Positions 5,182-21,560 of a DNA stretch of 25,826 bases are shown piece after piece. Origin of the DNA: a virus; IMG/VR virus record IMGVR_UViG_3300022902_000523, positions 1 to 25,826 of that record. The stretch is one strand, 5' to 3'. The notes beneath the pieces were generated by a model. That model searched no databases. It had not been told where the DNA came from and saw only the letters and a list, made by a program, of their open reading frames with translations. The position numbers were made by a program, and so were the translations under genes. Positions within the stretch are counted from its first letter, which is position 1. Every line of letters begins with the position of its first letter.

Positions 5182-8100
5182 TTTAAACTGCTAAATTGTA
5201 TTGGTTTATTTAGTGTCAAGTTTATTTCATTGCCTAATTTCTGGCCCACGACCTTAATGTTTTGATCACTGGACAAATTAATAGCTCCATTTAAATTCAG
5301 TGTAATCCCGGAACTTCTATCACCTTGAAAATCAAGTCTTGACAAATTAACACCGCTGAACCTTTCACCCTTATCAACAAATGCTAATCCTGATCTTGTA
5401 ATTTCGCCGCCTTGCGCGAGCTTAGGTATTCTAATTGCCTGCGCCGCAGACATTTGAGAATCCGGAGAAAAGCCTTTGGATAAAGTATCCAATCCCTCAA
5501 AAACACTGGTAAATAAGTCCGAGGCCTTGGCGAAATCTGGTGAGACGGCAATCTCTTTTGTCAAAGATTTAAAGCCTGCGGCATCAAAAACATCACCTTG
5601 CTTACTCAAAAACTCTGTTATCGGAGCCACGGTCTTCGCCATGATTGATTTTAAAACAGTCGTATTGCCCAAGCTGGCTGTTACCGCCTGTATTATACTA
5701 TCAAATATTGAGTTATTTAACACATCTTTAAATACATCAAAGCCTGCAGTAGCAGTTGACTGTTTAAACCCTTCTCCAATCGCAGAAGTCACAGCACCTG
5801 TCAATGTTGTCTCGATTGTGTCTAGTAGTTTTTCCGCATCGGCAGTCGCGGATTGAAGAGCACCTATCTTACTAGCTAAATCCTGTGGACTAGATGGTAT
5901 TGCCTGAATAGCAGATAAAGCTCCGGATAATTGAGGGAAATTTTCTTCGATACCCAATGCGCCGGCACGTCCCAAAACTCCACCGGCGGCCCCTTTGGCC
6001 TGTGCTGAGAGTGGATTCGCAATTGCCCCAAAACCTCTGAATGAAGTCGCTCCAAATGGCAATCCCGGTCTGCTTTTTTTTCCTCCGAATAAAGATCCAC
6101 CAATGCCGCCTAAAGCAGATCCAAGGAATCCTCCTGCTGCCGCCCCAATAGGCCCACCCAAGGCGAACCCCCCAATAGAACCACCAATACCGCCAATTGA
6201 ACTCCCGATCCTAGATCCACGGTTCTTTTGAAACCCCAATAGTCCTGGAGCAAATCCGCCCGCAAAAGAACCAATACCACCAGCGAGGCGAAGTCCACCA
6301 CCAATAGCCCTTGTGCCTGCACGTCCAAAAACCTTGGCAAATCCGCCCGCAAGCTTTCCCGTTCCTCCGAATGCAGTTCTTGCCGCCAATCCCAGACCGG
6401 CACCGCCAAGTCTGATCAAGCTTGACGGGCTAGACAACCCACCCGGGCTTAATGTCCCTTGGCCTGCAGCCAATGCAATAGACGCGGCACTTTTTAACCC
6501 AACCGATGAGGACAAGCTTTTGCCAGCACCTACGGCAGAAACCGCACTACTCGCACTAACCGGAGATCTACCGCCCTGTCCGATACCACCGATACCCGCA
6601 CCACTTGCCAATCCCCCAGCAGTTGTTTGTACTATTCTGTTTCCAGCAACAACTTGATTGCCCCCGAATCCTCCAACGCTACTAATTCCAGCAAAATTTA
6701 AAACCGACCGTGCCACGGCATCTGCGGATATCCTTACAATCGAATCACCTATATCCCTGAAGATATCTACCATCGTGTTTCTGAAATCCAATCCCTTGCG
6801 CGTAAGCCTTGCGAAAAGAATATTTGATAGAGTTGATTCAATCTTCCCGGATGTCGCGACAAAAGCCTTTTCTGTCTGCGATAATGCCTTTTTTGTAATT
6901 TGAGGGAACCGAGTATCCATCAGATTTACAAAATCCTGCACCTCTTTGTTTTGCAGTTTCAATGCAGGTATGATTTGCTTCCTTGCACTTTCCCACGCCT
7001 TGCCGAGTCTCGGCAATGAAACGGTACCACTTTTCTCTATTTCCTTAAATGCTTTAACTGCCGCATCTGCAGTTTTTGTAATTTCGACATCAGTGCTTAT
7101 GTTTAATAATTTCAATGCGGAATCAAGTGATTCCTTTGCTTGCTCATTTGCCAGCCTTCGTGCCTTTGCAACTTCAACTTCCCCCTTTGCCACAGCGTCT
7201 AATATCACAGCATATTTGGGCAATATTGTTATTAATGCAGTGTATTCTGTACTTGTCGCTTGGATTAATTTTAAATCTTCTGGAGTAAATGGCTTTTGCC
7301 CGGTTGCAATTTCTTTAATTGCTCTCTGCACTTCCTTGAGCCTCTTTGTCTCTGCCTCCGTGCCTACAAAAAAATCAAATGCTTTTTTGGGAGATTTAGT
7401 TAGAAGACTAAAAAACCTTTCAATAAAGCCAATCGTAACAGGCACTTCGTCTTTAATATCTATCAGCCCATTGCTAAAGCCAGTCAGCCCTTTGATTGCA
7501 CCAGTTAAAGCAGGAGTCGCAAGCAGCCCTAAGCTGATCCGTAAGTCATCAACCCTGATTTTAAATTGTTGTGCTTGGAACCAATTTGTTTTAGATATTT
7601 CTGCAAAGGCTTTTGCCGTTGAACCTGTTCTATTTAATATAGTATCATAATCTTCTGTTAATTCCGATAACTGAGCCATTTGATTATTAAATGCCCTCAG
7701 TGCTTCACGCTCTGAAAATATGATATTGATGTCATCTGTTCTCACTTTCCGAAGCGTTCGCAAGGTTTTAATCATGTTATCATTTGCGATAGCACTGGCA
7801 CCCAAAGTAATATTATATTTTGCCGCCGCTCTGCTTGCTTCAGCAGTCGGCTTACTCAGCGATATCATCAAAGTTCTAAGCCCCGTCACAGTCTCTTCTA
7901 TATTTTCACCAGACCGAGTTGCCGCCGCGAACGTTGCACCCAAATCTTCCACACTTACATCCAATGACCTTGCCGTTGACGCTATTTTTCCAAAATTCCT
8001 TGCAACATCTGCAAGTGTGGCTCTGCCTCGTTTTTGGATTGAAAACAGCAAGTCAGACGCATCGGTAGCATCTTTAATTCTATTGCTATAAATTTGGAAT

Positions 8101-10246: not shown

Positions 10247-10594
10247 CTATTTCTTTATTGATTCCTTTATGTCGTTTTCTGCCATAACGGTTTTTATGAT
10301 CTTTCTGAGTTTCTTTGTCAGTTCGTTGTCTTTGCGTAAAATTCGGCAGAATAGTCCCATTAACTTCTGCGCCGATATATCAAGTTCAAGCCATTCCCTT
10401 CTTTTAATATGCCCACCGGAATACGCTATACGCTTTAGCTCTGAATTGACAACCATTTTTATATTGCCTAGAAATTCGTTTTCTTCTTCGAGACCAGTGC
10501 ACAAGATACTTACTACTTCATTTTCTCTGATTTTTATTATCAAACCAGATTCCTCTTTCTCAGTCAACATTTTATTTGGCTTTGAATCACTCAT
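10247..10594 (-). CDS. Unknown 115-residue protein between cargo and tail tube
   Basis: The ATG overlaps the stop of the B12-type radical SAM gene (ATGA), so translation of the two is coupled. The N-terminal half is beta-like (SGLIIKIRENEVVSILC) and the C-terminal half helical and basic (AQKLMGLFCRILRKDNELTKKLRK). No signal peptide or membrane segment. It stands 45 bases before the tail tube gene. It could belong to the tail module or be the last cargo gene; I recognise no family and assign no function. Confidence 0.6.
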   Translation of the reverse strand: MSDSKPNKMLTEKEESGLIIKIRENEVVSILCTGLEEENEFLGNIKMVVNSELKRIAYSGGHIKRREWLELDISAQKLMGLFCRILRKDNELTKKLRKIIKTVMAENDIKESIKK

Positions 10595-11964
10595 AATTTA
10601 TATAACCTTTTGAATAAATGTTCTTTGTATAATTTTCCAACACGCTCATATAGACGATCAAACGGCAGTAGCAACAGGATACTTGCCATCCACTTCGGCA
10701 CTTTTAATCCAACCAATAAAGTGAATAAACGCTGCATATTCTCAAGCTTCCTTGCTGTTTTCTTATCAAATAGCAAGACAGTCTTGCCAAAAAATGCATC
10801 TGGTATTGTCGATATATCTCCGTCAAATACCCCTGACTTGATACATCTATTGCCAAGTTCCGTTGATGGATACGGCTGACAAAGCGATGCCCAACTGAGC
10901 CCGGTTTTGGATTTTTTATTGAACTCAAAAGTGTTCCACATGTCCTCAATGGTATTACAAAACGGAATACCGATCATATTTTCCATGCGAAAAGGCATTT
11001 TTAGTTCATGGAGTATATCTATAGCTTTATCTACTTTTTCCTGTGAAAACTTTTTGCCAAGTATTTCTTTTCTGACTTTACCGTCTGCGGATTCAAGAGC
11101 AAATGTTATTGAGTTACACCCAGCCTTTTGTAATAGTCTTATTCTATCATAATCAATATATTCTATTCTCATTTGTACGTGAAATGGAACGCCTACGTGG
11201 AAAGGCCAAAAGTCTGCTAATATTTCAAGATTCTTTTTGCTTGCACCCATTTCATCATCCTGGAAAAAGAAAAATTTGGTTTCCGGATAATCTTCTTTTA
11301 TCTTTGTCGCCTCATTTATGACTCTCCATATTTCCCGTTGCCTCAGTCTTTTGCCATCGAATATCTCATTAAATTGTGAATTAAAACAGAACGTACACGC
11401 AAATGGACACCCACGGCTTGAACTAATCGACCTAATAGGATTATTTTTATTGTGTTCATATTTATATAAAATATCTCTGTCTGGATCTGGCAATTCATCT
11501 AGCTTTTGTGGTGGTAATTTAGCATTAACCAATCCTGCCTTATTACAGCTTACATATTCTATACCCATAGAAAAAACATCCTCATTCCTCAAGTGTTCAC
11601 ACAATTCAGGCAGCGCATAATCACCTTCGCCCTTAATAACATAATCAATATGCGGTTGGCTCATAACATCATCCGTGCAGAATGTGGCATGGGCACCACC
11701 AAAGATTGAAATAAAACGGTAGTTTTGCTTAAGGCATTTGTTAATATCATAAAAACACTTCTGACCGCCTGTCCAAATCTGATAACAAATTATATTCGGA
11801 GTATGAGTTTTTACATATCCAATATAATCAGTGTCTTTATCGATCTGCAACAAATCGACTTCAAAGCCTTTTTGCTTTAAACCGGCAGATAGGTACCCAA
11901 TTCCAAGGGGTTCGATAACAAATCGCTTTGTTATAAATAAAATCTTATTCAACTTTTTGCTCAT
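10591..11964 (-). CDS. B12-binding-domain radical SAM enzyme
   Basis: A 457-residue enzyme. Residues 8-125 look like the cobalamin-binding-like Rossmann domain of this family, with the typical GGAHATF (89-95) and KGEGDYALPEL (111-121) signatures. The radical SAM core follows: CPFACTFC (C186, C190, C193) to bind the 4Fe-4S cluster, and later GIPFCNTIEDM. The last 60 residues are hydrophobic and basic (PKWMASILLLLPFDRLYERV), perhaps membrane-associated. Known relatives methylate or rearrange unreactive carbons in lipids, sugars, peptides or antibiotics; the substrate here is unknown. It lies directly after the GT9 gene and is coupled to the next gene. Confidence 0.85.
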   Translation of the reverse strand: MSKKLNKILFITKRFVIEPLGIGYLSAGLKQKGFEVDLLQIDKDTDYIGYVKTHTPNIICYQIWTGGQKCFYDINKCLKQNYRFISIFGGAHATFCTDDVMSQPHIDYVIKGEGDYALPELCEHLRNEDVFSMGIEYVSCNKAGLVNAKLPPQKLDELPDPDRDILYKYEHNKNNPIRSISSSRGCPFACTFCFNSQFNEIFDGKRLRQREIWRVINEATKIKEDYPETKFFFFQDDEMGASKKNLEILADFWPFHVGVPFHVQMRIEYIDYDRIRLLQKAGCNSITFALESADGKVRKEILGKKFSQEKVDKAIDILHELKMPFRMENMIGIPFCNTIEDMWNTFEFNKKSKTGLSWASLCQPYPSTELGNRCIKSGVFDGDISTIPDAFFGKTVLLFDKKTARKLENMQRLFTLLVGLKVPKWMASILLLLPFDRLYERVGKLYKEHLFKRLYKL

Positions 11965-11985
11965 TTCCCTAATTAGTTACTATTG

Positions 11986-12915
11986 TTATTCCAAATCCGA
12001 GGCTGTTTGTAATTCTATTTCTACATTATGAGAAGTATCACCATGGAACTCAACAATCTTCATTTGCCTCTTTATCAAACGCCACACCCGGTCAACATCA
12101 AGCCTCTCAATACATGTTGGCTTTGATTTACAATGAGCATGGCACCTAATAGGCCGACACGTTGGGCACGGCTCAGACACGATATGATAAACATTATCGC
12201 CATATCCTCCGGAAGTTTTTGGTATTGTACAACCACATAATTGAAATACTTGTGTTCCGGTAGTTGCAGCCAAAGAAGTTAATCCAGAATCAAGTCCGAT
12301 GAACATATCAGCATTATTCATCAAATGCCATATTTCAGTAAAGCTACCTTTAAATCGATGGTCATCATCAACCATCTGCATATCTTTATCACCACCAACC
12401 TGGTAGATTGTGTATCCGGCGTCTGTCAATAATTGATTCAACGTATACCAATCTTTGAAATCCTTATCTGAATTTCTAGTTTGACAATGAATTACCGCAT
12501 ATTTAAAATTGATTATCTCGGGTCCTATTTTTGGATTAGGATAAAAGACCAAAGGTGTTTTCTTTACCGGCAATCCGCATCTTAATTGATAATAATTGAG
12601 CAAATGATTATGCCTCAAATAATCAAGCTGGTGCCAGATACCATCCTCCCACTTGATCTGCTGAGGAATCATAACCTTGTCATAACCGCCTTTGATCGCA
12701 TGTTGTAATATCAGATCCCATTGAGTCAACCAATTCTCGCATACTTCTATTTTATGGAAATCAGGATTATATCCAACGAGTTCCAAGTAGCACGTGTTTG
12801 TAAATAACGTGATTTCTGTATCTTCTCCATGATGTTCTTTAATATTACGTGCGAGTGGATTATTAAGGATTACATCGCCCATGTCTTTTACAAGCACTAG
12901 CATTATCTTTTTCAT
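11986..12915 (-). CDS. GT9 (heptosyltransferase-like) glycosyltransferase
   Basis: A 309-residue GT-B enzyme. The start is the ATG at 12915 because AAAGGAGAACA lies just before it; an in-frame ATG at 12954 would overlap the previous gene. The GT9 signatures are visible: NNADMFIGLDSGLTSLAA near the donor site, then a Cys-rich C-terminal patch (CPTCRPIRCHAHC) and a final helical segment as in ADP-heptose transferases. Family members add heptose or related sugars to lipopolysaccharide or, in a few cases, to proteins. It follows a virion protein gene by 11 bases and precedes the B12-type radical SAM gene, inside the cargo block. Acceptor and donor are unknown. Confidence 0.85.
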   Translation of the reverse strand: MKKIMLVLVKDMGDVILNNPLARNIKEHHGEDTEITLFTNTCYLELVGYNPDFHKIEVCENWLTQWDLILQHAIKGGYDKVMIPQQIKWEDGIWHQLDYLRHNHLLNYYQLRCGLPVKKTPLVFYPNPKIGPEIINFKYAVIHCQTRNSDKDFKDWYTLNQLLTDAGYTIYQVGGDKDMQMVDDDHRFKGSFTEIWHLMNNADMFIGLDSGLTSLAATTGTQVFQLCGCTIPKTSGGYGDNVYHIVSEPCPTCRPIRCHAHCKSKPTCIERLDVDRVWRLIKRQMKIVEFHGDTSHNVEIELQTASDLE

Positions 12916-12926
12916 TGTTCTCCTTT

Positions 12927-13988
12927 TCAATTGTCTACATACAACATTGCCCATCCTGCAGCAATTCCAGTGCTGTTCGTATCTGAATCAGCCTCTATTG
13001 TTATATCATTCATTTCTTTGAAACCTCCCTTTGGAATTGGATACACTCTTGGCAAGGCGCTATTACCTGAAGACATAACGGATGCCTCCTCCTGTACCTG
13101 AAAAACATCCCCAACTGGCCTGACTTTTAATCTTAAGCTGCAATTTGCGTTTACCTTGCCAGACAGAGAACCGAACCATGTAATAAAATGCCCTGTTTTT
13201 CCTGCAGGAATTGTATCTGCGCAAATCATTGTGGAGTTATAACCGATAGGCAATGCCATCATGATATTTGCCGTGGTTGTTTTCTGCCGACATGTAATCT
13301 CTCCAACATTGTCCCCACCATGACATCTCGCTCTAGACATTCTCAAATAAGCACCAACAGTATCAACCCCTGTTACCCCATTAGTTATTATGTATTCACC
13401 CCCTACATCTACATAGGAAGAATTAAGAAGATGCCTCAATTTGATAACTGGCGTTCCCGTAGAGGCTTTAGTGGCGACCCTATAAGCATCATTTACTGCA
13501 ATAGCAGTGCTTCCTTCAAATCTCCACACCGTGATTATTGTTTCAGTGACAGATACTATTATCCCATGATCGGACTGAGTGTCATTTATTAAAACATCGC
13601 CAGCCGCCACTCCATCACTTGAAAAAGTGGCTCCTGTATCTTCCATGGTTGTAGTGCTTCCACCCGTTGCCGTGCCGCTTGATACTAATGTCCCGATATC
13701 ATTCCCACTGCTACTAAAGACTTCTAATATTTCTGCCGCTACCGCATTATGCCCTGTATAAACCCCACCACCATTCCATATGGTTTCAAATGTACCAACT
13801 GCATTCGGTATATTAGGGTTACGTCCAAACTTATGCACCACAGAATGTCCCGGTATATTCCCCTTCGCAACTTCTAATAAAAAATCTCGTGTCCAAAGAG
13901 GATTTCCAGGAATACCCATTTGTTTCTGCGATTGATCTCCTAAATATGCAGCAATCTTTGATATCTCTTTATTTAAATTAACAGCCAT
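12927..13988 (-). CDS. Phage virion protein of the 'IPGHSVVHKFGRNP' type
   Basis: A 353-residue beta-rich protein. The N-terminal motif PGHSVVHKFGRNPNIPNAVGTFETIWNGGG (split: IPGHSVVHKFGRNPNI then FETIWNGGGVY, about 46-76) and the C-terminal part with AGKTGHFITWFGSLSG, KVRPVGDVFQVQ and FKEMNDITIEADSDTNSTG recall a structural protein found in many marine and soil phages, often annotated as a fibre or hypothetical virion protein. A Thr/Gly/Ser-rich insert with beta repeats lies at about 98-175. It overlaps the aldo/keto reductase-like gene by 11 bases. Its place between sugar-modifying enzymes suggests it may be a substrate or partner; that is inferred. Confidence 0.7.
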   Translation of the reverse strand: MAVNLNKEISKIAAYLGDQSQKQMGIPGNPLWTRDFLLEVAKGNIPGHSVVHKFGRNPNIPNAVGTFETIWNGGGVYTGHNAVAAEILEVFSSSGNDIGTLVSSGTATGGSTTTMEDTGATFSSDGVAAGDVLINDTQSDHGIIVSVTETIITVWRFEGSTAIAVNDAYRVATKASTGTPVIKLRHLLNSSYVDVGGEYIITNGVTGVDTVGAYLRMSRARCHGGDNVGEITCRQKTTTANIMMALPIGYNSTMICADTIPAGKTGHFITWFGSLSGKVNANCSLRLKVRPVGDVFQVQEEASVMSSGNSALPRVYPIPKGGFKEMNDITIEADSDTNSTGIAAGWAMLYVDN

Positions 13989-14715
13989 TGTTTCCCATCC
14001 GTCCTGTTATATCGTTAAACAACTTAATAGTTTCCTCGCAGTGAGCAATGTTCTTTGTGCCAAAACATATTACATCCGGATTTATTTCATTGATAATCAT
14101 GTGGAAGGTGTTGGTAATTACACTTGCAACATGACAAGGCTTCGCCATAAAAGAAAGACCATCATTAAATGGCTTTATTGCAAATACATATTTATCCTGC
14201 CTCTTTAATTCTAATGCAAAATCTTTCATTTCAGGGCTTGATTTTGGATGATACGGTATCATGAAAAACTTACATTCCGGGTGTTGTTTTAAAAACATAA
14301 ACCCCATTCCTGCTGACTCAGTTGTAATGCCAAGCCGTGGGAACATTTTAGTTTCTAAAAGTTCATGATATAATTTATCACCGGTATTGTATAATTGTTT
14401 ATCGTCCAGGTCGGATATCCACATTATATCTGGTATGCGCTGTAATGTTTGCAAGCTGTTTTTGACCAACATTAAATTTTCATTATATTTATAAGCTGAA
14501 ACCTTAGTCATTATCTTAACGGTCGGATTCTCACAATAATTTCCGAGTATTGCTTCACTGATTCCATATCGATGATGGCTATCGAATAGATTTATTCCAA
14601 GAGCCAATGCCCTCTCAATTAATGGGTATGCTAGTGCTGTCGGTAGGTGCTCAAATTTCCCACCGCCGAGGCATAACCGGGAAATATCTAAACCGTCAAT
14701 ATTTGTTGTTTTCAT
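13978..14715 (-). CDS. Aldo/keto reductase-like protein, catalytic His not seen
   Basis: A 245-residue TIM-barrel protein of the aldo/keto reductase superfamily, shorter than the usual 280-330. It shows SRLCLGGGKF (12-21), LIERALALGINLFDSHHRYG (32-51) and KIMTKVSAY (67-75), giving three of the four catalytic residues: D45, Y50 and K71. The position normally holding His (after 'D-x-x-x-x' in strand 4) reads DIMWISDLDD, with Ser101 in place of His. The C-terminal NADPH-binding loop is also shortened. It may use another substrate, act differently or be a degenerate partner protein. The start overlaps the stop of the 57-residue gene (ATGA). Context suggests sugar or keto-group chemistry. Confidence 0.65.
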   Translation of the reverse strand: MKTTNIDGLDISRLCLGGGKFEHLPTALAYPLIERALALGINLFDSHHRYGISEAILGNYCENPTVKIMTKVSAYKYNENLMLVKNSLQTLQRIPDIMWISDLDDKQLYNTGDKLYHELLETKMFPRLGITTESAGMGFMFLKQHPECKFFMIPYHPKSSPEMKDFALELKRQDKYVFAIKPFNDGLSFMAKPCHVASVITNTFHMIINEINPDVICFGTKNIAHCEETIKLFNDITGRMGNNGC

Positions 14716-14885
14716 ACTATTTTTTTATTATATTGTATGCAGTAAGCTATATTATGTAATACTTGGTGATTAGACGAGCACGAATCTTTTGATTTATCTA
14801 TTTTGGCATTGATCCTGTTTACCCACACTGACCTCTCATGGTTCCTTGCCGATTTTTGTATTGATTTAATTTCTTGATTTTTCAT
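14712..14885 (-). CDS. Small basic protein, 57 residues, function unknown
   Basis: An ATG immediately after the TAG of the SPASM radical SAM gene opens a 57-codon frame that ends in an ATGA overlap with the aldo/keto reductase-like gene. Filling the gap exactly and coupling on both sides strongly suggests it is translated. The protein is rich in Lys, Asn, Ser and Gln (MKNQEIKSIQKSARNHERS...) with two Cys, no membrane segment and no recognisable domain. Confidence 0.6.
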   Translation of the reverse strand: MKNQEIKSIQKSARNHERSVWVNRINAKIDKSKDSCSSNHQVLHNIAYCIQYNKKIV

Positions 14886-15866
14886 CTAATTAATCCCCAA
14901 TTCCTCACATACCTCATCGTATGTATTTTTAAATTCTTCTCCAGATTTCCACCACGCAGCATCTATCCCAGCAGACCTCATATAATCACACTCACCACAA
15001 TAAGACAATTCTTTCTTTTTGCCTTCAATAAATGCTTTCCGGATATCCATCATCGGCTTGCCATGCCATATCTCTTTAAGTGTTTGATATTTTAAATCAC
15101 CTATCACAACGGTACCTCGAACATCTTGGCAGCAAACAACGGCACGCCCATCTGCCATAATACTTAAATCAAGGAATATCCGCCAGCAAGGAACATTAAT
15201 ATCCCCTGCCATATATTGAGATTCTTTAATAATCTTGCTGTCAGAATCAATCAATCCACCAATGTTCTGCACCCCGGAACCACCAACATCATCAACGCCC
15301 ATATCCTGAAAAAGCTTATGATATGCATCCAGTGATTTTTTGTTGGCTTGTTGTGGCACAATAGCCGTTTGAATCTTCATGTTGACACTGCCAGCATTTC
15401 GAATCTTAACAAGATTTCTTACATTCTCAACGACTATATCAAATTTCAACCCAACACGGATTTTTTCATAATCCTCTGCATTCCCACCATCAATACTGAT
15501 TACAATTATATCAAGTCCTGATTCTAATATTTTTACAATTTTTTGCTTATCCAAGAGGCTTCCATTTGTGAAGAATACCAACTTCTTATCTGGATTAATT
15601 TCCTTAGTATATTTAATTCTTGAAACCAGCTTATCAATATCCATCAATAACGGCTCACCATTTAGATGAAAGTGGATGTATTCCATATGATAATCCTTGC
15701 ATTCAACAACCGCTTTCTGGAATATATCACTCGGCATTTCTCCTTGATAGCGTGTCATGCCACCACGCGGACACATAGTGCAACGGGCATTACACCCGGA
15801 ATGGCTCTCTAAATGTATCTCCGCTGGGAAAGCCATTGCCTTTGTTAAATATTCCTTTAGATTCAA
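14886..15866 (-). CDS. Radical SAM/SPASM-domain enzyme
   Basis: A 326-residue enzyme. CNARCTMC (C25, C29, C32) binds the SAM-reactive 4Fe-4S cluster; HFHLNGEPLLM and FTNGSLLD follow in the barrel. The C-terminal part has the SPASM layout: CWRIFLDLSIMADGRAVVCC, GDLKYQTLKEIWHG and CGECD, which hold extra iron-sulfur clusters. Family members modify peptides and proteins (thioethers, carbon-carbon links, formylglycine) or act on sugars and other small molecules. The only start between the upstream stop and the motif is TTG at 15866, with GAGG 9 bases before it, unless the ATG at 15836 is used. No precursor peptide is obvious next to it. Confidence 0.88.
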   Translation of the reverse strand: MNLKEYLTKAMAFPAEIHLESHSGCNARCTMCPRGGMTRYQGEMPSDIFQKAVVECKDYHMEYIHFHLNGEPLLMDIDKLVSRIKYTKEINPDKKLVFFTNGSLLDKQKIVKILESGLDIIVISIDGGNAEDYEKIRVGLKFDIVVENVRNLVKIRNAGSVNMKIQTAIVPQQANKKSLDAYHKLFQDMGVDDVGGSGVQNIGGLIDSDSKIIKESQYMAGDINVPCWRIFLDLSIMADGRAVVCCQDVRGTVVIGDLKYQTLKEIWHGKPMMDIRKAFIEGKKKELSYCGECDYMRSAGIDAAWWKSGEEFKNTYDEVCEELGIN

Positions 15867-15960
15867 TGTGTACGTCCTCTATTTTTAATGAATTGTCTAT
15901 AAACGATAAGTCCATTGTTAATGTTATATCTCCGCGTCTGACTATACAAGTATGCTTCAC
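15790..15960 (-). CDS. Possible small overlapping gene (56 residues)
   Basis: A GTG overlapping the methyltransferase stop (GTGA) opens a 56-codon frame that fills the 90-base gap and then overlaps the first 77 bases of the SPASM gene in another frame. The first half reads like a protein (MKHTCIVRRGDITLTMDLS). It may be a real coupled gene, or a leftover from shifting the SPASM start to TTG. Low confidence without comparison to relatives. Confidence 0.3.
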   Translation of the reverse strand: MKHTCIVRRGDITLTMDLSFIDNSLKIEDVHIESKGIFNKGNGFPSGDTFREPFRV

Positions 15961-16553
15961 TCCCAAATAATATAACCAATCAAATCTCCGCGTACCTTAA
16001 CTTCAAATTTCTTGAATATATCGGTCAAAAAAGCAATGAAGTCTCCAATATTCCAATGCCATAAATGCTCCGGATTGTCATTTGCCATTCCGCTTGGTAG
16101 AATGCCACATACTACCTTGGCCACTCCCTTTTGTTCTCTCAATGCTTTTCCGGGGCATGTAAAATGTTCTAATGAATGCTGGGAAAAGGCAGCATCGAAA
16201 GGGGTTTTTACATACTTGCAAATTCCTGTTAATTCTTCAGACAATGACTGCTCAAAATAAACATTTGATATATTATTCCTCTCTTGCAAATCTCTAGCGA
16301 GTTTTATGAAAATTCTTGATCCGTCTATGGCAGAAACCCGACAATCATTATTCAATGCGTATGACAAAGCAAATAACCCATTTCCACAACCCATATCAAT
16401 AATGCTTTTACTATCTTTTAACACGGAATCGTACATCCATTTAAATATTGTTCCGGTATCTCCATTATCAGTCAACAAATAATGATCTTTAATCCTCTGC
16501 TTATCCCATTTGTCAAAGTTATTTACAATATCCTTGTAATATCCTGATTCCAT
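15957..16553 (-). CDS. Class I SAM-dependent methyltransferase (start uncertain)
   Basis: A methyltransferase with SAM-binding motif I IIDMGCGNGLFALS (51-64 counted from the ATG at 16553), then SAIDGSRIFIKLAR and a QHSLEHF motif as in small-molecule methyltransferases. The ATG at 16553 has no ribosome binding site and the frame is open further upstream to 16634, with protein-like sequence (HKYPDGCKSVDDVSRYLDIQ). The only strong ribosome binding site, AAGGAG at the end of the preceding GT gene, fits an ATT at 16622, which would give 221 residues. Substrate is unknown; sugar or lipid-linked sugar is likely from the neighbouring glycosyltransferases. Confidence 0.8.
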   Translation of the reverse strand: MESGYYKDIVNNFDKWDKQRIKDHYLLTDNGDTGTIFKWMYDSVLKDSKSIIDMGCGNGLFALSYALNNDCRVSAIDGSRIFIKLARDLQERNNISNVYFEQSLSEELTGICKYVKTPFDAAFSQHSLEHFTCPGKALREQKGVAKVVCGILPSGMANDNPEHLWHWNIGDFIAFLTDIFKKFEVKVRGDLIGYIIWE

Positions 16554-16617
16554 TGCCTGTATATCGAGATAGCGAGAAACATCATCAACACTTTTACATC
16601 CATCAGGATATTTATGT

Positions 16618-17724
16618 TTAATTAAATATCTCCTTCAACAACTGAATTGCCACATCATTCCACTGCATATCAAACATGTCTGCACGGCCAGCATCTCCCA
16701 AAGTACATCCATGAACCGGTTTACTGGCCAACGCTCTCATTTTTGCTTTCAAATCTTCTTTATCCGGAATAAGCCACTTATGATTTAACGCCTGTGGACA
16801 TTTCTTTATGTATTCAACGCAGTCTATAGTTTTTTCCAGGCACTTAACAGTAAGGCCATTAACTCCGTCCTGCACAAAGTCCATATACCCGCCCTGAGCC
16901 GTTACAATTACCGGTAGTCCTCTGGACATGGCTTCTGCCACTGGCAAGCCAAGTCCCTCGCCTCTGGTCGCCAGAACGAAGCAATCACACGCATTGTATA
17001 GCCTTGGCAAGTCGTCATAATACAACTTGTCTGTATTTAATAAGATCCTTGGGTGTCTACCATGCTTTTTAATCATATCCTCTATCAAATATGACAATTG
17101 ATATCGATGCATTGCTGTGAACCCACCCCTATGTGTCTTGAGAATCAGTGTCACATCTTCTTCCGGGCCAAATTCCTCACAATAGGCATCAAGTAAGATG
17201 TCAAAGCCCTTACGCTCTGTGAAGTCGCCAACACTCAAGAATGTATACCCCTTTTTGTTTAATATGTTTGCTGGTTCCTCACAATACCGGAATGAATCTT
17301 CAATGCCGAAACCAAGACTGGCAACATTATCCAAAGTCTTTGACCAATGGGCTCTGTTGAATTCACTGAACGTAAATACCTTTTTGACACGCTCGAAATA
17401 AGGAAGCCATTCTGACGGAACTTTATCAGTTTCAAACAGACTGTAAATATATGCCTTTTTTAAATCAATATCTTGCGGAATGTCGTCTTGCCACTTCTGC
17501 ATAACAACAACCGGAGCATCTTTGATAAAGGGAGTATCGGCCATTCTTTTAAGCCTGCTTGTTTTGTCTGTTGGCAAATTCACAATCTCCCTGTTCCATC
17601 CCTGTATATTCCGGAATGATACCTTGACTCCAAGTTTATCCAACGCTTCTAAGAGACCACGCGTGATCAGTTCGTATCCAGATTGCCCTTGTGCGGCTCC
17701 GTACCAGTTTAAAGCATATGTCAT
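16618..17724 (-). CDS. GT4-family glycosyltransferase (second)
   Basis: A 368-residue GT-B retaining glycosyltransferase. Residues 1-155 form the acceptor domain (opening NWYGAAQGQSGYELITRGL). The donor domain includes FLSVGDFTERKGFDILLDAY (162-181) and the catalytic EX7E motif in EGLGLPVAEAM (E256 and E264). It presumably adds a sugar from a nucleotide-sugar donor to a glycan or protein. The ending DMQWNDVAIQLLKEIFN shares DMQW with the other GT4 in this block. A weak AAAGG site precedes the ATG at 17724, one base after the small Cys-rich gene. Donor and acceptor cannot be read from sequence. Confidence 0.9.
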   Translation of the reverse strand: MTYALNWYGAAQGQSGYELITRGLLEALDKLGVKVSFRNIQGWNREIVNLPTDKTSRLKRMADTPFIKDAPVVVMQKWQDDIPQDIDLKKAYIYSLFETDKVPSEWLPYFERVKKVFTFSEFNRAHWSKTLDNVASLGFGIEDSFRYCEEPANILNKKGYTFLSVGDFTERKGFDILLDAYCEEFGPEEDVTLILKTHRGGFTAMHRYQLSYLIEDMIKKHGRHPRILLNTDKLYYDDLPRLYNACDCFVLATRGEGLGLPVAEAMSRGLPVIVTAQGGYMDFVQDGVNGLTVKCLEKTIDCVEYIKKCPQALNHKWLIPDKEDLKAKMRALASKPVHGCTLGDAGRADMFDMQWNDVAIQLLKEIFN

Positions 17725-17725
17725 A

Positions 17726-17887
17726 TTAATCCTTTTTCTTTAATTTTATTGTAGGTATTTCAAATTCAATACCATAATTCGTGCAGTTAAGTGTTATGCA
17801 AAATACAGTCTTTTCATGGCAATCTTGCTCTAATTCAACTTTACACTCAGGACAAATAACCTTGACAAAGGCATTCATAAAAGGCAT
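17726..17887 (-). CDS. Small Cys-rich (zinc-ribbon-like) protein, 53 residues
   Basis: An ATG overlapping the TGA of the first GT4 gene by one base opens 53 codons, ending one base before the second GT4 ATG. The sequence holds CPEC (12-15) and three more Cys (23, 29, 34), the layout of a small zinc ribbon or a metal-binding protein, with a basic tail (KLKKKD). Exact packing between two genes supports translation. Zinc ribbons in phage structural clusters are often nucleic-acid or protein binding; the role here is unknown. Confidence 0.55.
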   Translation of the reverse strand: MPFMNAFVKVICPECKVELEQDCHEKTVFCITLNCTNYGIEFEIPTIKLKKKD

Positions 17888-19098
17888 CACACCATCTCCA
17901 TTACAACGTTATATTTTAAAGGATGCTCGATTTTATCTATAACCTTTTTCCACTGCATATCAATAACCCCTTGAGACAAATTCTCTTTAGCCCAATCGTA
18001 AGCTTTATCAACCATTGCGTTCCGCTTTTCTGCCTTCATAGACTTCATTTCTATAATAGCCTTGGCAATGTCCTTTGGATTCGCCAATGGCCTTTCTGTT
18101 AATTCCATTCCCGTTATATATGCCGTTGGTTTCACCTTAATACCTCTGCCATTCCCAGCAAGCTCTCCGGTTGCTGCATTGTCAATGGTAATAACCGGCA
18201 ATTTAGCCATCATAGCCTCAGCAACATTATACCCGAATCCTTCCCCGGCTACGTTTATCAGGCAATCAGCAATTCCGAACAAAAGATTGTATTCCTTTTC
18301 TGTCATCATTAATAACGGTGTACTTGCCTCGGACATTTGTTTAAAGGTATAAACTTTATTTTGTAACCCAAACTCTGCGATTAACATATTAATATTATAA
18401 CCCTGTGGATCCGCAAAGTTTGAATTTATCCATAATCCATAGTCTTTGTCATGCCCACAATCCATTAAAATCTTGTATGCCTTCATTACATCGGCCAAGC
18501 TCTTCCTGAAATGTGTTCTTCCTGTGTAAAGGCATAGAAATTTATCTGGTGGAATATTTAATTCCTGCCTGAGCTTCGTTCTTTCTTCTTTTGAAATTGG
18601 ATGAAAAACTTTCTCGTTAATTCCGTGATATATCCGCTCAATCCTGTTTGTCACTTCTGGAATAGTATGGATAACAGCCCGTCTTCCATACTCACAATAT
18701 GTTATTATATGGTCTGCATGGCCTAAGTGAGTCGCATGGTGCTTTGGCATGCCTCCACCGTATCCAGTGCCATCAACCGCACAATATGAAACCCACTTGA
18801 ACAATCCTCTTACTGGTGACTGTCCGATATAAGCAAAGTTCCATATATCACCAATTGTCAACACAATATCCGGACGATTTTCTCTGATCAGATCACCAAA
18901 CATTGCAGATCCGTAATCTTCTACTGCATAAATCACATTGAACGGCAGTTTTTTATTTCTGTTTACCTCAGAAGGACACCAAGCATTATAAAACACTCCA
19001 TGCCCAGCTTTATACAACGCCATTGCCACATCATGACCTATACGCCCTTGGCCAGTTTGCAATCTCGGGTTCTCGCCTATTACTAATATATTTGCCAT
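17887..19098 (-). CDS. GT4-family glycosyltransferase (first)
   Basis: A 403-residue GT-B glycosyltransferase. The N-terminal domain starts MANILVIGENPRLQTGQGRI with the Gly-rich acceptor-side loop. The donor domain carries RIYHGINEKVFHP (155-167), YTGRTHFRKSLADV (191-204) and the EX7E motif in EGFGYNVAEAM (E286 and E294). The N-terminus contains no signal peptide or membrane segment, so it acts in the cytoplasm. Its ATG overlaps the TAA of the 72-residue gene (TAATG), tying it to the tail-terminator side of the operon. This is the first gene of the cargo block in transcription order. It ends in GVIDMQWKKVIDKIEHPL, sharing DMQW with the second GT4. Confidence 0.9.
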   Translation of the reverse strand: MANILVIGENPRLQTGQGRIGHDVAMALYKAGHGVFYNAWCPSEVNRNKKLPFNVIYAVEDYGSAMFGDLIRENRPDIVLTIGDIWNFAYIGQSPVRGLFKWVSYCAVDGTGYGGGMPKHHATHLGHADHIITYCEYGRRAVIHTIPEVTNRIERIYHGINEKVFHPISKEERTKLRQELNIPPDKFLCLYTGRTHFRKSLADVMKAYKILMDCGHDKDYGLWINSNFADPQGYNINMLIAEFGLQNKVYTFKQMSEASTPLLMMTEKEYNLLFGIADCLINVAGEGFGYNVAEAMMAKLPVITIDNAATGELAGNGRGIKVKPTAYITGMELTERPLANPKDIAKAIIEMKSMKAEKRNAMVDKAYDWAKENLSQGVIDMQWKKVIDKIEHPLKYNVVMEMV

Positions 19099-19316
19099 TA
19101 TGTTATCATTTCCTTAATCGTATCAATTTCCTTTTTCGTTTCATTAAGCGTTTCATAAATAACCGTGGGACTCAAACCACGCTTATTGCAACGATCAGTA
19201 GTCGCCAATACTGCATCTTCAACTTCCGATTTGTTAAGAAATTTTGCAGCCAATAGGCACGTCAACATATTAATAAATTCAATTTGAACTATGCCTACTT
19301 GTGTTTCTTCATCCAT
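19098..19316 (-). CDS. Small helical protein, 72 residues
   Basis: Coupled by TAATG to both the preceding tail-terminator-like gene and the following GT4 gene. Mostly helical: INMLTCLLAAKFLNKSEVED then ETLNETKKEIDTIKEM. Two Cys but no metal-binding pattern, and no clear membrane span. It sits where phage neck and tail-completion proteins normally lie, and it is the last gene before the cargo. I recognise no family. Confidence 0.65.
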   Translation of the reverse strand: MDEETQVGIVQIEFINMLTCLLAAKFLNKSEVEDAVLATTDRCNKRGLSPTVIYETLNETKKEIDTIKEMIT

Positions 19317-19771
19317 TATGCTTTTTTCTCCAAATTCCCTTCAATCTCAGCCGTTAAAATTGCAATCTGGAAATAATCCGGCTCCCTCGGCAATGTCTCA
19401 TATGCAATCTCTGTAATAACGATAGCGCCCTTTACAAGATATCCATCAAGTGTGTTGAATTCAATCACATCAATAACATCTTGAACTTGCTGGACAATCC
19501 CTTTGTTATTTCCGCCACCTATAATTGCTTCTTCCATATTAGGGTATACGGCAAGTATAGTAATTTGTATTTCATGATTTGGCCTAATTTGTAATGTGGT
19601 TTCAACTTCTCTGCCTGTGTTTTTAGGAGCGATGGCAATAAAAGGCAATTTTTCTACTGGAATCTCAATCCCAACTGCTTTTGCTAAATCAACCGGCATT
19701 ATCTCTATTGTGGCGGAGCCAGTAAGATCTAGCATTAATAACGCCTTAAGCCTTTTTAATGTTTCCTTCAC
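19316..19771 (-). CDS. Tail terminator-like protein (Mu gp37/DUF1834-like)
   Basis: A 151-residue protein. The GTG start overlaps the stop of the gpG-like gene (GTGA) and has GGAGG about 10 bases upstream. The helical N-terminus (LKRLKALLMLDLT) and the beta strands EIQITILAVYPN, DGYLVKGAIVITEIAYETL and FQIAILTAEIEG resemble tail-terminator or neck proteins of the gp37-like family, which cap the tail tube and join it to the head. Order supports this: it follows the gpG-like gene. In most phages the tail tube gene would follow, but here 9 kb of other genes intervene. The family match is from general pattern. Confidence 0.6.
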   Translation of the reverse strand: MKETLKRLKALLMLDLTGSATIEIMPVDLAKAVGIEIPVEKLPFIAIAPKNTGREVETTLQIRPNHEIQITILAVYPNMEEAIIGGGNNKGIVQQVQDVIDVIEFNTLDGYLVKGAIVITEIAYETLPREPDYFQIAILTAEIEGNLEKKA

Positions 19772-20756: not shown

Positions 20757-21191
20757 CTATGAATAAGAATAAGTCATTACTTGTTTTAAAGATACACCAC
20801 GCTCAAGACTGTCTCTCATTTGTCCTGTTATTTCTTTGAATGCCTCGATATCCCAGTTGTCGCAATTAGCGCAAATAGTTGGGTAAACGCCAACCCATAC
20901 ACCGCCACAACTTTCACAGATACAAAACAATTCATTATTTTCTCCTCCGATAGCCTTACATGCATTAAGCCATTCTTCAACATTATTAAAATGCGGTACA
21001 CTCGCACCATTTATCTGTTTAAGCGGATACTCACCCCAACTACCACGGATATAATCGTTTTCGTTTCTTTGCTTTTCATTTTCCGGAAAAGATACTCGTA
21101 AATCCTCTAGTGAAATCACCTTTAATGGCAATGGTTCAAGAGTCTCAGCCTCTTTGGATATCTTGCGTTTACTATTTCCTTTTGATTTCAT
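20757..21191 (-). CDS. Zinc-ribbon protein, second of a tandem pair
   Basis: A 144-residue protein with a Lys-rich N-terminus (MKSKGNSKRKISKEAETLEP) and a C-terminal zinc ribbon: CICESCGGVWVGVYPTICANC. The Cys pairs (CxxC ... CxxC) can bind one zinc. The ribbon and the preceding VEEWLNACKAIGGENNELF align with the upstream 119-residue protein (QLQTKLVELGGDHGHEF...CGGCGGVF), indicating an old duplication. Sitting between the major capsid and connector genes, it may be a capsid-associated or assembly protein, or a regulator; no family recognised. Confidence 0.6.
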   Translation of the reverse strand: MKSKGNSKRKISKEAETLEPLPLKVISLEDLRVSFPENEKQRNENDYIRGSWGEYPLKQINGASVPHFNNVEEWLNACKAIGGENNELFCICESCGGVWVGVYPTICANCDNWDIEAFKEITGQMRDSLERGVSLKQVMTYSYS

Positions 21192-21200
21192 GATATTTGC

Positions 21201-21560
21201 CTATTCATATTTATAGAAAGCTGTATCAACTATATTGCCACATACACACTGTGTAGGTTTCAAATCGATGAACACGCCTCCACAACCGCCACATACATAA
21301 AACTCATGGCCATGATCGCCACCAAGCTCAACCAACTTCGTTTGCAATTGATTAACACTGCCTAAAGCCGGTGCATTCGCAGATTGTGGCATGGAAGGCC
21401 ACATGTCCTCTACAGCCGGTTCTTGTTCTCCTGCCTCTACTTTACCATGAGAGTCTTCCGTGGATTCCTCTGCAACCATGTGAATAGGCTTTGACTCTTT
21501 TTCAAGTTCATCTTCAAACGGCTGAACTTCTTCTCCATTCTCTGGGGTTTCGTTTTCCAA
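21201..21560 (-). CDS. Zinc-ribbon protein, first of a tandem pair
   Basis: A 119-residue protein. The start is TTG at 21560, 8 bases after AAAGGAG. Residues 1-55 are very acidic and disordered-looking (Glu/Asp/Pro-rich); the C-terminal ribbon is VCGGCGGVFIDLKPTQCVCGN, with CxxC and CxC pairs. It resembles the next gene's product over about 40 residues. An acidic tail next to a zinc ribbon is unusual for a head protein. Function unknown. Confidence 0.6.
   Translation of the reverse strand: MENETPENGEEVQPFEDELEKESKPIHMVAEESTEDSHGKVEAGEQEPAVEDMWPSMPQSANAPALGSVNQLQTKLVELGGDHGHEFYVCGGCGGVFIDLKPTQCVCGNIVDTAFYKYE

Follow-up and report, generated by a model that had tools for sequence, protein, structure and literature searches.

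The locus raises the question of what glycosyltransferase (GT), radical SAM (rSAM), methyltransferase (MT) and aldo/keto reductase (AKR) genes are doing between two genes for a phage tail. In the window, by which we mean the whole 25,826-nt stretch of DNA analysed, they form a block at positions 10247-19316, with every enzyme gene on the minus strand between the tail-terminator-like and tail-tube genes. The answer that we favour, with confidence only just above even, is that the block is a glycan-assembly island at the terminator/tube junction of a siphovirus-like lineage, acting late to make a heptose-type glycan that is tailored by rSAMs and most likely carried on virion proteins. The features, read along the minus strand, are as follows.

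19316..19771, minus strand: tail-terminator-like protein (151 residues), after Neck1 (phrog_26); upstream border of the insertion
19098..19316, minus strand: 72-residue ORF (ORF list), one-base overlap with each neighbour; window clade only, absent from relatives L035 and L037
17887..19098, minus strand: GT4a, GT4-family glycosyltransferase, first core gene (PF00534; phrog_2170)
17726..17890, minus strand: 54-residue zinc-ribbon-like ORF between GT4a and GT4b (ORF list), four-base overlap with GT4a
16618..17724, minus strand: GT4b, GT4-family glycosyltransferase, second core gene (PF00534, 7e-20)
15957..16553, minus strand: SAM-dependent methyltransferase (PF13847)
14886..15866, minus strand: radical SAM enzyme with Twitch/SPASM auxiliary-cluster domain, TTG start (PF04055 and PF13186)
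14712..14885, minus strand: 57-residue ORF between the Twitch rSAM and AKR genes (ORF list), absent in relatives
13978..14715, minus strand: aldo/keto-reductase-like protein (PF00248, a weak match at 30.4 bits, cut-off 24)
12927..13988, minus strand: 353-residue virion-like (tail-fibre/structural) protein between AKR and GT9 (phrog_8198, 1.4e-23)
11986..12915, minus strand: GT9, heptosyltransferase family, third core gene (PF01075, 1.3e-9)
10591..11964, minus strand: B12-binding radical SAM enzyme, fourth core gene (PF02310 and PF04055 in one chain, above cut-off)
10247..10594, minus strand: 115-residue small protein preceding the tail tube; partial homologue (42% over 38 residues) at the same spot in relatives L035/L040
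9314..10201, minus strand: tail tube protein (PF18906, Phage_tube_2, 2.6e-26; phrog_290); downstream border of the insertion

A Pfam search recovers two GT4s, one GT9, a SPASM-type rSAM, a B12-type rSAM, an MT and an AKR, all above curated cut-offs, which bears out the enzyme set on one strand described in the original prediction. Its placement of these genes likewise holds, with Neck1 and the terminator-like gene on one side and Phage_tube_2 on the other, although its gene list lacked the 353-residue virion-like protein. The terminator-like protein has no match in family-model searches (Pfam, PHROG); the window order of Neck1 followed by the terminator-like gene is that of RDJL Phi 1, where the gene after Neck1 is annotated as tail terminator, and the protein is 43–52% identical in the nearest relatives. 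The tail tube, used as a query against deposited phages, gives no match. The genes had been described as joined by overlaps, which is correct for some junctions, but at others gaps of 64, 90, 21 and 45 bases intervene. Terminator-like sites are no commoner than in shuffled sequence and none falls within these gaps, and promoter and terminator scans return nothing exceeding shuffles. We infer that the block is transcribed together with the tail genes.

The search of related genomes proposed as a check locates the block at the same junction. The core GT4a–GT4b–GT9–B12-rSAM, in that order, is complete there in four lineages (the window clade, L035, L060/L063 and G009) whose major capsid identity goes down to 40%, and partial in four more (L037, L044, L045 and G001), which have the first core genes at that junction on contigs that end there. 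GT4a directly follows the terminator in L035, L037, L028, L044, L063 and G009r, and GT4b, 41–62% identical across six other lineages, has GT4a as its neighbour in every one. GT9 is 28–64% identical in L035, L063, G009 and L044; the B12-rSAM is 66% identical in L035 and 38–39% identical in L063 and G009, and in each of them its gene lies between GT9 and the tube. The core arrangement is not due to chance: order and place are kept in independent lineages. An assembly artefact is ruled out as the source of the block, because five contigs have it in common and distant relatives repeat it. GT4a identity follows capsid identity (Spearman 0.86, Mantel p 0.001; 28 pairs, eight lineages), as does that of GT4b (Spearman 0.69, Mantel p 0.005), indicating long co-inheritance with virion genes; Mantel tests for GT9, the B12-rSAM and the tube, with few taxa, do not reach 0.05.

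The terminator and tube genes are adjacent and the site is empty in the distant relatives RDJL Phi 1 and KPP23, identifying the junction as an insertion site. The extra genes found there vary (the 353-residue gene, rSAM2, a GmrSD/HNH-like gene, a 19-kb island), and so clear a hot spot could mean that the block is mobile cargo, comprising morons or metabolic genes that happen to occupy a junction able to tolerate them and that benefit the host or have no role at all. We give this explanation a small chance, given that the four-gene core keeps its order at 28–66% identity between lineages, a level of conservation similar to that of capsid and tube, and that among near-identical contigs the GT9 codons differ by 15 synonymous and 4 non-synonymous changes.

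GT9, with its gene start trimmed to the conserved MKKIMLVLVKDMGD, scores 38.2 bits against PF01075 (cut-off 22) and also matches heptosyltransferase I–III models. Its matches to the heptosyltransferase I and Aah/TibC O-heptosyltransferase models are weak and lie under the specific-model cut-offs (heptsyl_trn_I 34 bits versus 185; Aah/TibC 22.6 versus 200), and a solved-structure search with it gives no sequence match. A GT9 with two GT4s is an enzyme set of LPS-core assembly, a cytosolic process for which no flippase is needed. This set, together with the heptosyltransferase I–III matches, fits the main rival explanation, that late in infection the enzymes alter the LPS core, or some other glycan, of the host surface and thereby spare progeny from binding debris or infected cells. 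The hydrophobic C-terminal stretch of the B12-rSAM also fits host-surface modification, which is the explanation favoured for pelagimyophage GTs (PMC7029224). We nevertheless consider it unlikely. The place of the genes among virion genes is fixed over deep divergence; Pfam finds no membrane flippase, membrane glycosyltransferase or GtrA/GtrB-like gene of the gtrABC type in the block, and hydropathy maxima of at most 1.65 leave it with no clear membrane protein; and some phages whose Gram-positive hosts have no LPS likewise carry GT4 genes in structural operons. The resemblance of GT9+GT4+GT4 to LPS-core enzymes is counted against a virion glycan, as is the window's lack of any recognised nucleotide-sugar gene.

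The rSAM first described as SPASM-type does match PF04055 and PF13186, but has cysteines for one auxiliary cluster only and is therefore Twitch-type. Its CxxxCxxC motif (C25-x3-C29-x2-C32) and auxiliary cysteines C227, C245, C290 and C293 are invariant in an alignment; it has no further cysteines for a second SPASM cluster, ruling out assignment as a full two-cluster SPASM peptide maturase. Its nearest solved structure is BtrN, both by profile and by fold, with DesII next but one by fold, and C245, C290 and C293 align with BtrN C187, C232 and C235. No relative was found in a scan of 84,980 bacterial and archaeal genomes that is sensitive to close relatives only. Structure prediction, suggested earlier as a check, confirms the fold of the AKR-like protein, whose predicted model matches AKR structures (best PA4992; E 6e-13, TM 0.72); a solved-structure search with its sequence gives no match. 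The AKR gene adjoins the rSAM gene in L018, is one gene apart from it in L035 and L048, and is fused to it as a single ORF in L037. Of the catalytic tetrad Asp-Tyr-Lys-His, D45, Y50 and K71 are invariant and, in a by-eye comparison of two sequences, Ser seems to stand where His is expected, an observation that we count against the virion-glycan reading. The MT has a homologue in L035 (35%), and in L048 lies beside the AKR.

The B12-rSAM matches AprD4 in the PDB, and its best scores stay below function-specific NCBIfam cut-offs (HpnJ 102.9 bits versus 577.6; AprD4 48.7 versus 500). No rSAM scores above an equivalog cut-off, so their reactions are assigned by nearest neighbour only. Many SPASM and B12-rSAM family members are peptide maturases, and the two rSAMs might thus act on residues of virion proteins, by RiPP-like chemistry or protein C-methylation, with the GTs serving separately. 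This strikes us as very improbable: no small precursor peptide is conserved with the rSAM, the single auxiliary cluster and the presence of BtrN and DesII among the nearest structures point elsewhere, and sugar-nucleotide genes lie in the same island of G009.

That island, 19 kb long at the terminator/tube junction, contains GmhA-like, HddA-like, nucleotidyltransferase and GDP-mannose-4,6-dehydratase-like genes, along with further GT2s and rSAMs. The island makes sugars, and its rSAMs therefore probably act on sugars; because its genes include heptose-nucleotide genes, the glycan probably contains heptose. The GT9 of G009, used as a query against deposited phages, finds no match.

Enzymes of this kind located away from virion genes had been named at the outset as a finding that would speak against virion modification, and in part they are so located. 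G001 and G008 have SPASM-rSAM/AKR/MT/GT genes upstream of terminase, between replication and packaging genes and outside the tail operon, and we count this against the virion-glycan reading; G001 still has GT4a–GT4b immediately after the terminator. G008 also carries QueC/D/E-like genes, and genes resembling DNA methyltransferases lie upstream of terminase in a near-identical relative. Both would suit DNA hypermodification, in which the GTs and radical enzymes put a tailored glycan on phage genome bases before packaging, and glycosylation of DNA by phage GTs is known (Pyle 2024, as cited in PMC12619734). We regard this as improbable, since neither the window nor those stretches of the relatives' incomplete genomes that were read show a recognisable hydroxymethylpyrimidine-synthesis or DNA-kinase gene, most lineages co-locate the block with tail rather than replication genes, and G009 has nucleotide-heptose genes. 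The best reading is still the one originally predicted, a pathway for modifying the virion that is produced along with the tail genes, because the core is fixed at the junction in divergent relatives and because GT4/MT/GT2 genes are likewise found within, or leading, the structural operons of unrelated phages whose hosts are Gram-positive.

In such a pathway, GT4a, GT4b and the heptosyltransferase-family GT9 would build a short glycan. The Twitch rSAM would turn a hydroxyl group of a sugar into a ketone, the kind of oxidation that BtrN carries out on a cyclitol, and the coupled AKR would reduce the ketone to leave an epimerized or deoxygenated sugar, with the B12-rSAM and the MT tailoring the glycan further. 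Attachment would occur in the cytoplasm, during assembly, to virion surface proteins, of which the tail tube, the capsid and the 353-residue protein are candidates. Residues ~205–353 of this last protein match cyanophage proteins annotated as tail fibre or virion structural. Its gene is restricted to the window clade, and because it is missing in L035 and G009 the protein is ruled out as a universal glycan acceptor, an absence also counted against the virion-glycan reading. Only tentatively do we propose the scheme in full, namely a virion-attached heptose glycan in which oxygen-sensitive radical reactions (Twitch-rSAM oxidation with AKR reduction, and a B12-rSAM step) rewrite the sugars, produced by an assembly-time island whose place in the tail operon is fixed and whose size, about 5 to 19 kb, differs from relative to relative.

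If this is true, some phages make elaborate particle glycans by means of an island that is both conserved and movable and that brings its own enzymes for tailoring by radical chemistry, with heptose-nucleotide genes as well in one relative, and many phage genes now loosely filed as auxiliary metabolic or LPS-modifying gain a testable function. The terminator/tube junction is a place to look for more such islands. To our knowledge, protein glycosylation in tailed phages has been proven in only a few cases.

The closest known enzymes come from antibiotic biosynthesis. BtrN, the radical SAM dehydrogenase of butirosin, oxidizes a ring hydroxyl of a free aminocyclitol (PMC9012708). The Twitch rSAM resembles it in its Twitch auxiliary domain, in a shared C-x44-C-x2-C spacing and in being its best fold and profile match, but the two are about 20% identical and the BtrN substrate is a free aminocyclitol. 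Apramycin AprD4/AprD3 pairs a radical SAM dehydratase with an NADPH reductase acting on a sugar (PMC5461906), much as an rSAM and a reductase are paired here; however, it is the B12-rSAM that matches AprD4, short of the NCBIfam cut-off, whereas the AKR pairs with the Twitch enzyme.

The original statement that this is not a described phage system was too strong. Virion glycosylation (as cited in PMC11256854 and PMC12363180) and rSAM/GT cassettes (PMC7029224) are already known in phages, and it is the arrangement that is new. Phage GTs glycosylate the virions of mycobacteriophages Che8, Corndog and Myrna (Freeman 2023, as cited in PMC11256854, PMC12363180 and PMC12619734), where the tail tube and the capsid have been proven to accept the glycan (according to citations in PMC12619734 and PMC12363180). 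The phages studied here likewise encode GTs (two GT4s and one GT9 above Pfam cut-offs), in stable association with virion genes across relatives; their GTs adjoin the tube gene, and the acceptor is putative. The related phage Maravista has its GTs near the 3′ end of the genome, and PMC11256854 does not mention rSAM, AKR or heptose genes, whereas here the core lies inside the tail operon. S-CBS4, Mae-JY09 and phiPsal1, the last a phage of an actinobacterium, carry a GT4-like gene amid head and neck genes, with an MT and a second GT in two of the three, but at other insertion points (portal/protease, capsid/neck) and with no radical SAM enzyme annotated. GT and radical SAM cassettes with a proposed role in O-chain modification adjoin the tail-fibre genes of pelagimyophages, whose host-recognition cluster is a hypervariable T4-like region (PMC7029224), whereas in these siphovirus-like phages the core keeps a fixed order and a fixed place.

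The genes of interest in this 25.8-kb virus record all lie on the minus strand, in the following order.

Minus strand, head side: protease, decoration/scaffold-like gene, major capsid protein (phrog_1005), small genes, Neck1 (phrog_26), terminator-like gene.
Minus strand, after the terminator-like gene: the block of enzyme genes (10247–19316), tail tube (Phage_tube_2), tape measure, tail-tip genes.

The enzymes originally predicted for the block are all borne out, each exceeding Pfam curated cut-offs: two GT4-family glycosyltransferases (GT4a and GT4b), a methyltransferase (MT), a radical SAM enzyme (rSAM) with a SPASM domain, an aldo/keto reductase (AKR), the heptosyltransferase-family GT9 and a B12-binding rSAM (B12-rSAM). 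That list overlooked a gene for a 353-aa protein that lies between those for AKR and GT9; it matches phrog_8198 and cyanophage proteins annotated as tail fibre or virion structural. Neighbouring genes mostly overlap, as reported, or are a short distance apart, except that gaps within the block reach 64 and 90 bases; these two, the largest, contain no terminator-like site. Two small zinc-ribbon-like proteins are encoded in the capsid–neck interval (20757–21191 and 21201–21560), and are also found in the relative L035.

The block is carried by four near-identical contigs, which differ at 6001–7000 of the window, within the tape-measure gene, where G+C is up to 0.50 versus about 0.40 elsewhere. 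In L035 (capsid 56% identical) the terminator–tube interval contains GT4a, GT4b, MT, SPASM-rSAM, an extra rSAM, AKR, GT9 and B12-rSAM, and in L060 and L063 (capsid 44%) exactly GT4a, GT4b, GT9 and B12-rSAM, with the first three genes overlapping at their ends. Genome G009 (capsid 40%) has GT4a, GT4b, GT9, a GDP-mannose-4,6-dehydratase-like gene, B12-rSAM and then further glycan genes in a 19-kb stretch upstream of the tube; this glycan island (contigs L076, L077 and L062) includes two B12-rSAMs, two other rSAMs, several glycosyltransferases, methyltransferases and heptose-nucleotide genes. GT4a also follows the terminator region in L037, L044, L045 and G001, whose contigs stop short of the tube; those that extend far enough show GT4b as well, and L044 also shows GT9. 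A GmrSD_C/HNH-like gene in the GT4b–GT9 interval of L044 (12562–13236) is possibly a homing-type insertion. Identity of GT4a tracks that of the capsid (Spearman 0.86, Mantel p 0.001; 28 pairs, eight lineages), as does that of GT4b (0.69, p 0.005), in lineages that were located via the enzymes themselves, so that the frequency of the island among all relatives is not derivable from them. The same comparison gives no significance for GT9, B12-rSAM and the tube, for which there are too few taxa.

Roseobacter phage RDJL Phi 1 (capsid about 26% identical) has the same gene order as the window, with Neck1, the tail terminator and the next gene, which we take as the tube though it is annotated major capsid protein, in direct succession (gap about 18 bases). 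Pseudomonas phage KPP23 looks similarly arranged. The simplest reading is thus that the block was inserted between terminator and tube in one branch.

In the more distant genomes G001 and G008 of the same lineage, SPASM-rSAM, AKR and MT lie with GT2 and GT4 upstream of terminase, joined in G008 by B12-rSAM. Immediately before this gene set, G001 encodes LamG-domain proteins and G008 a short protein that has the same N-terminus as those proteins. GT4a and GT4b of G001 nevertheless remain behind the terminator. The lineage therefore has a fixed part, GT4a–GT4b, which GT9 and B12-rSAM usually accompany, and a movable part, rSAM–AKR–MT. The occurrence of the latter away from the tail operon counts in part against the original proposal and makes it less likely that all the enzymes are bound up with tail assembly. 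Three relatives carry an additional GT4 gene upstream of the terminase genes (L024:1208–2290, L018:11923–13041 and L048:14123–15280; 33–48% identical). QueD-, QueE- and QueC-like genes in G008 (L048:1062–2729) suggest, as read from sequence, 7-deazaguanine chemistry.

The best solved relative of the SPASM enzyme is BtrN (E 5e-14 with the single sequence, 8e-18 with a profile). In fold comparison, too, BtrN ranks first and the sugar enzyme DesII is one of those that follow; the predicted model is of moderate confidence (mean pLDDT 73, lowest around the iron–sulphur motifs). We class the enzyme as Twitch-type on its auxiliary cysteines (C227, C245, C290 and C293): in the alignment, C245, C290 and C293 fall on C187, C232 and C235 of BtrN with the same spacing, and no cysteines are left for a second auxiliary cluster. 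BtrN oxidizes a ring hydroxyl in a two-electron step (PMC9012708). Structure prediction bears out the AKR fold (mean pLDDT 85). The rSAM and AKR genes adjoin each other in L018. One gene intervenes in L035 and L048, and a 57-aa ORF does so in the window; at L037:6984–8195 the two make up a single open reading frame, which may be a natural fusion and is seen in one contig, ending within it. The Twitch enzyme may thus oxidize, and the AKR then reduce, the same sugar.

For B12-rSAM, the nearest solved structure is AprD4 and the nearest curated model HpnJ, all far below cut-offs. The HpnJ substrate is a lipid-linked sugar. AprD4 acts on a sugar together with a reductase (PMC5461906). The B12-rSAM gene at L059:2296–4680 is interrupted in frame by an intein (PF14890, with weak similarity to LAGLIDADG). 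The insertion falls precisely on the third cysteine of the CxxxCxxC motif, a position characteristic of inteins in active enzymes.

The sugar genes of G009, together with GT9, point to heptose or deoxy-heptose. They include a kinase, best matched by the model for D-glycero-D-manno-heptose 7-phosphate kinase (E 8e-47), an isomerase, best matched by those for phosphoheptose isomerases (E 7e-20), a nucleotidyltransferase and the GDP-mannose 4,6-dehydratase-like enzyme (E 4e-117; 391 bits, cut-off 415); none of the four reaches an equivalog cut-off. We infer a heptose-type sugar for the window itself, from which the G009 heptose genes are absent.

The block's place among virion genes, co-inheritance and parallels in other phages make virion proteins the putative acceptor, with roughly an even chance of being correct. 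In phiPsal1, which infects the actinobacterium Pontimonas, GT4–MT–GT2 occupies the capsid–neck interval; GT4 genes also lie among the head genes of S-CBS4 and Mae-JY09, and a GT4b homologue heads the late operon of Streptomyces phages. Capsid and tail tube are proven glycan acceptors in mycobacteriophages, according to citing passages in PMC12363180 and PMC12619734. The glycosyltransferases and tailoring enzymes could instead target the host surface (LPS): GT9 and the GT4s resemble LPS-core enzymes, and similar pelagimyophage genes are read preferentially as host surface modification (PMC7029224), yet we regard this as unlikely here, and DNA as acceptor as quite improbable. As a separate observation, Streptomyces phage Coruscant (Gram-positive host) has an annotated heptose kinase/adenylyltransferase with two glycosyltransferases near its GT4b homologue (L082:5986–7698).

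Glycosylation of phage virions has been described, as have glycosyltransferase genes in structural regions and cassettes of rSAMs and glycosyltransferases near tail fibres; the open-licence articles searched yielded no island of the same composition conserved at one junction of the tail operon.
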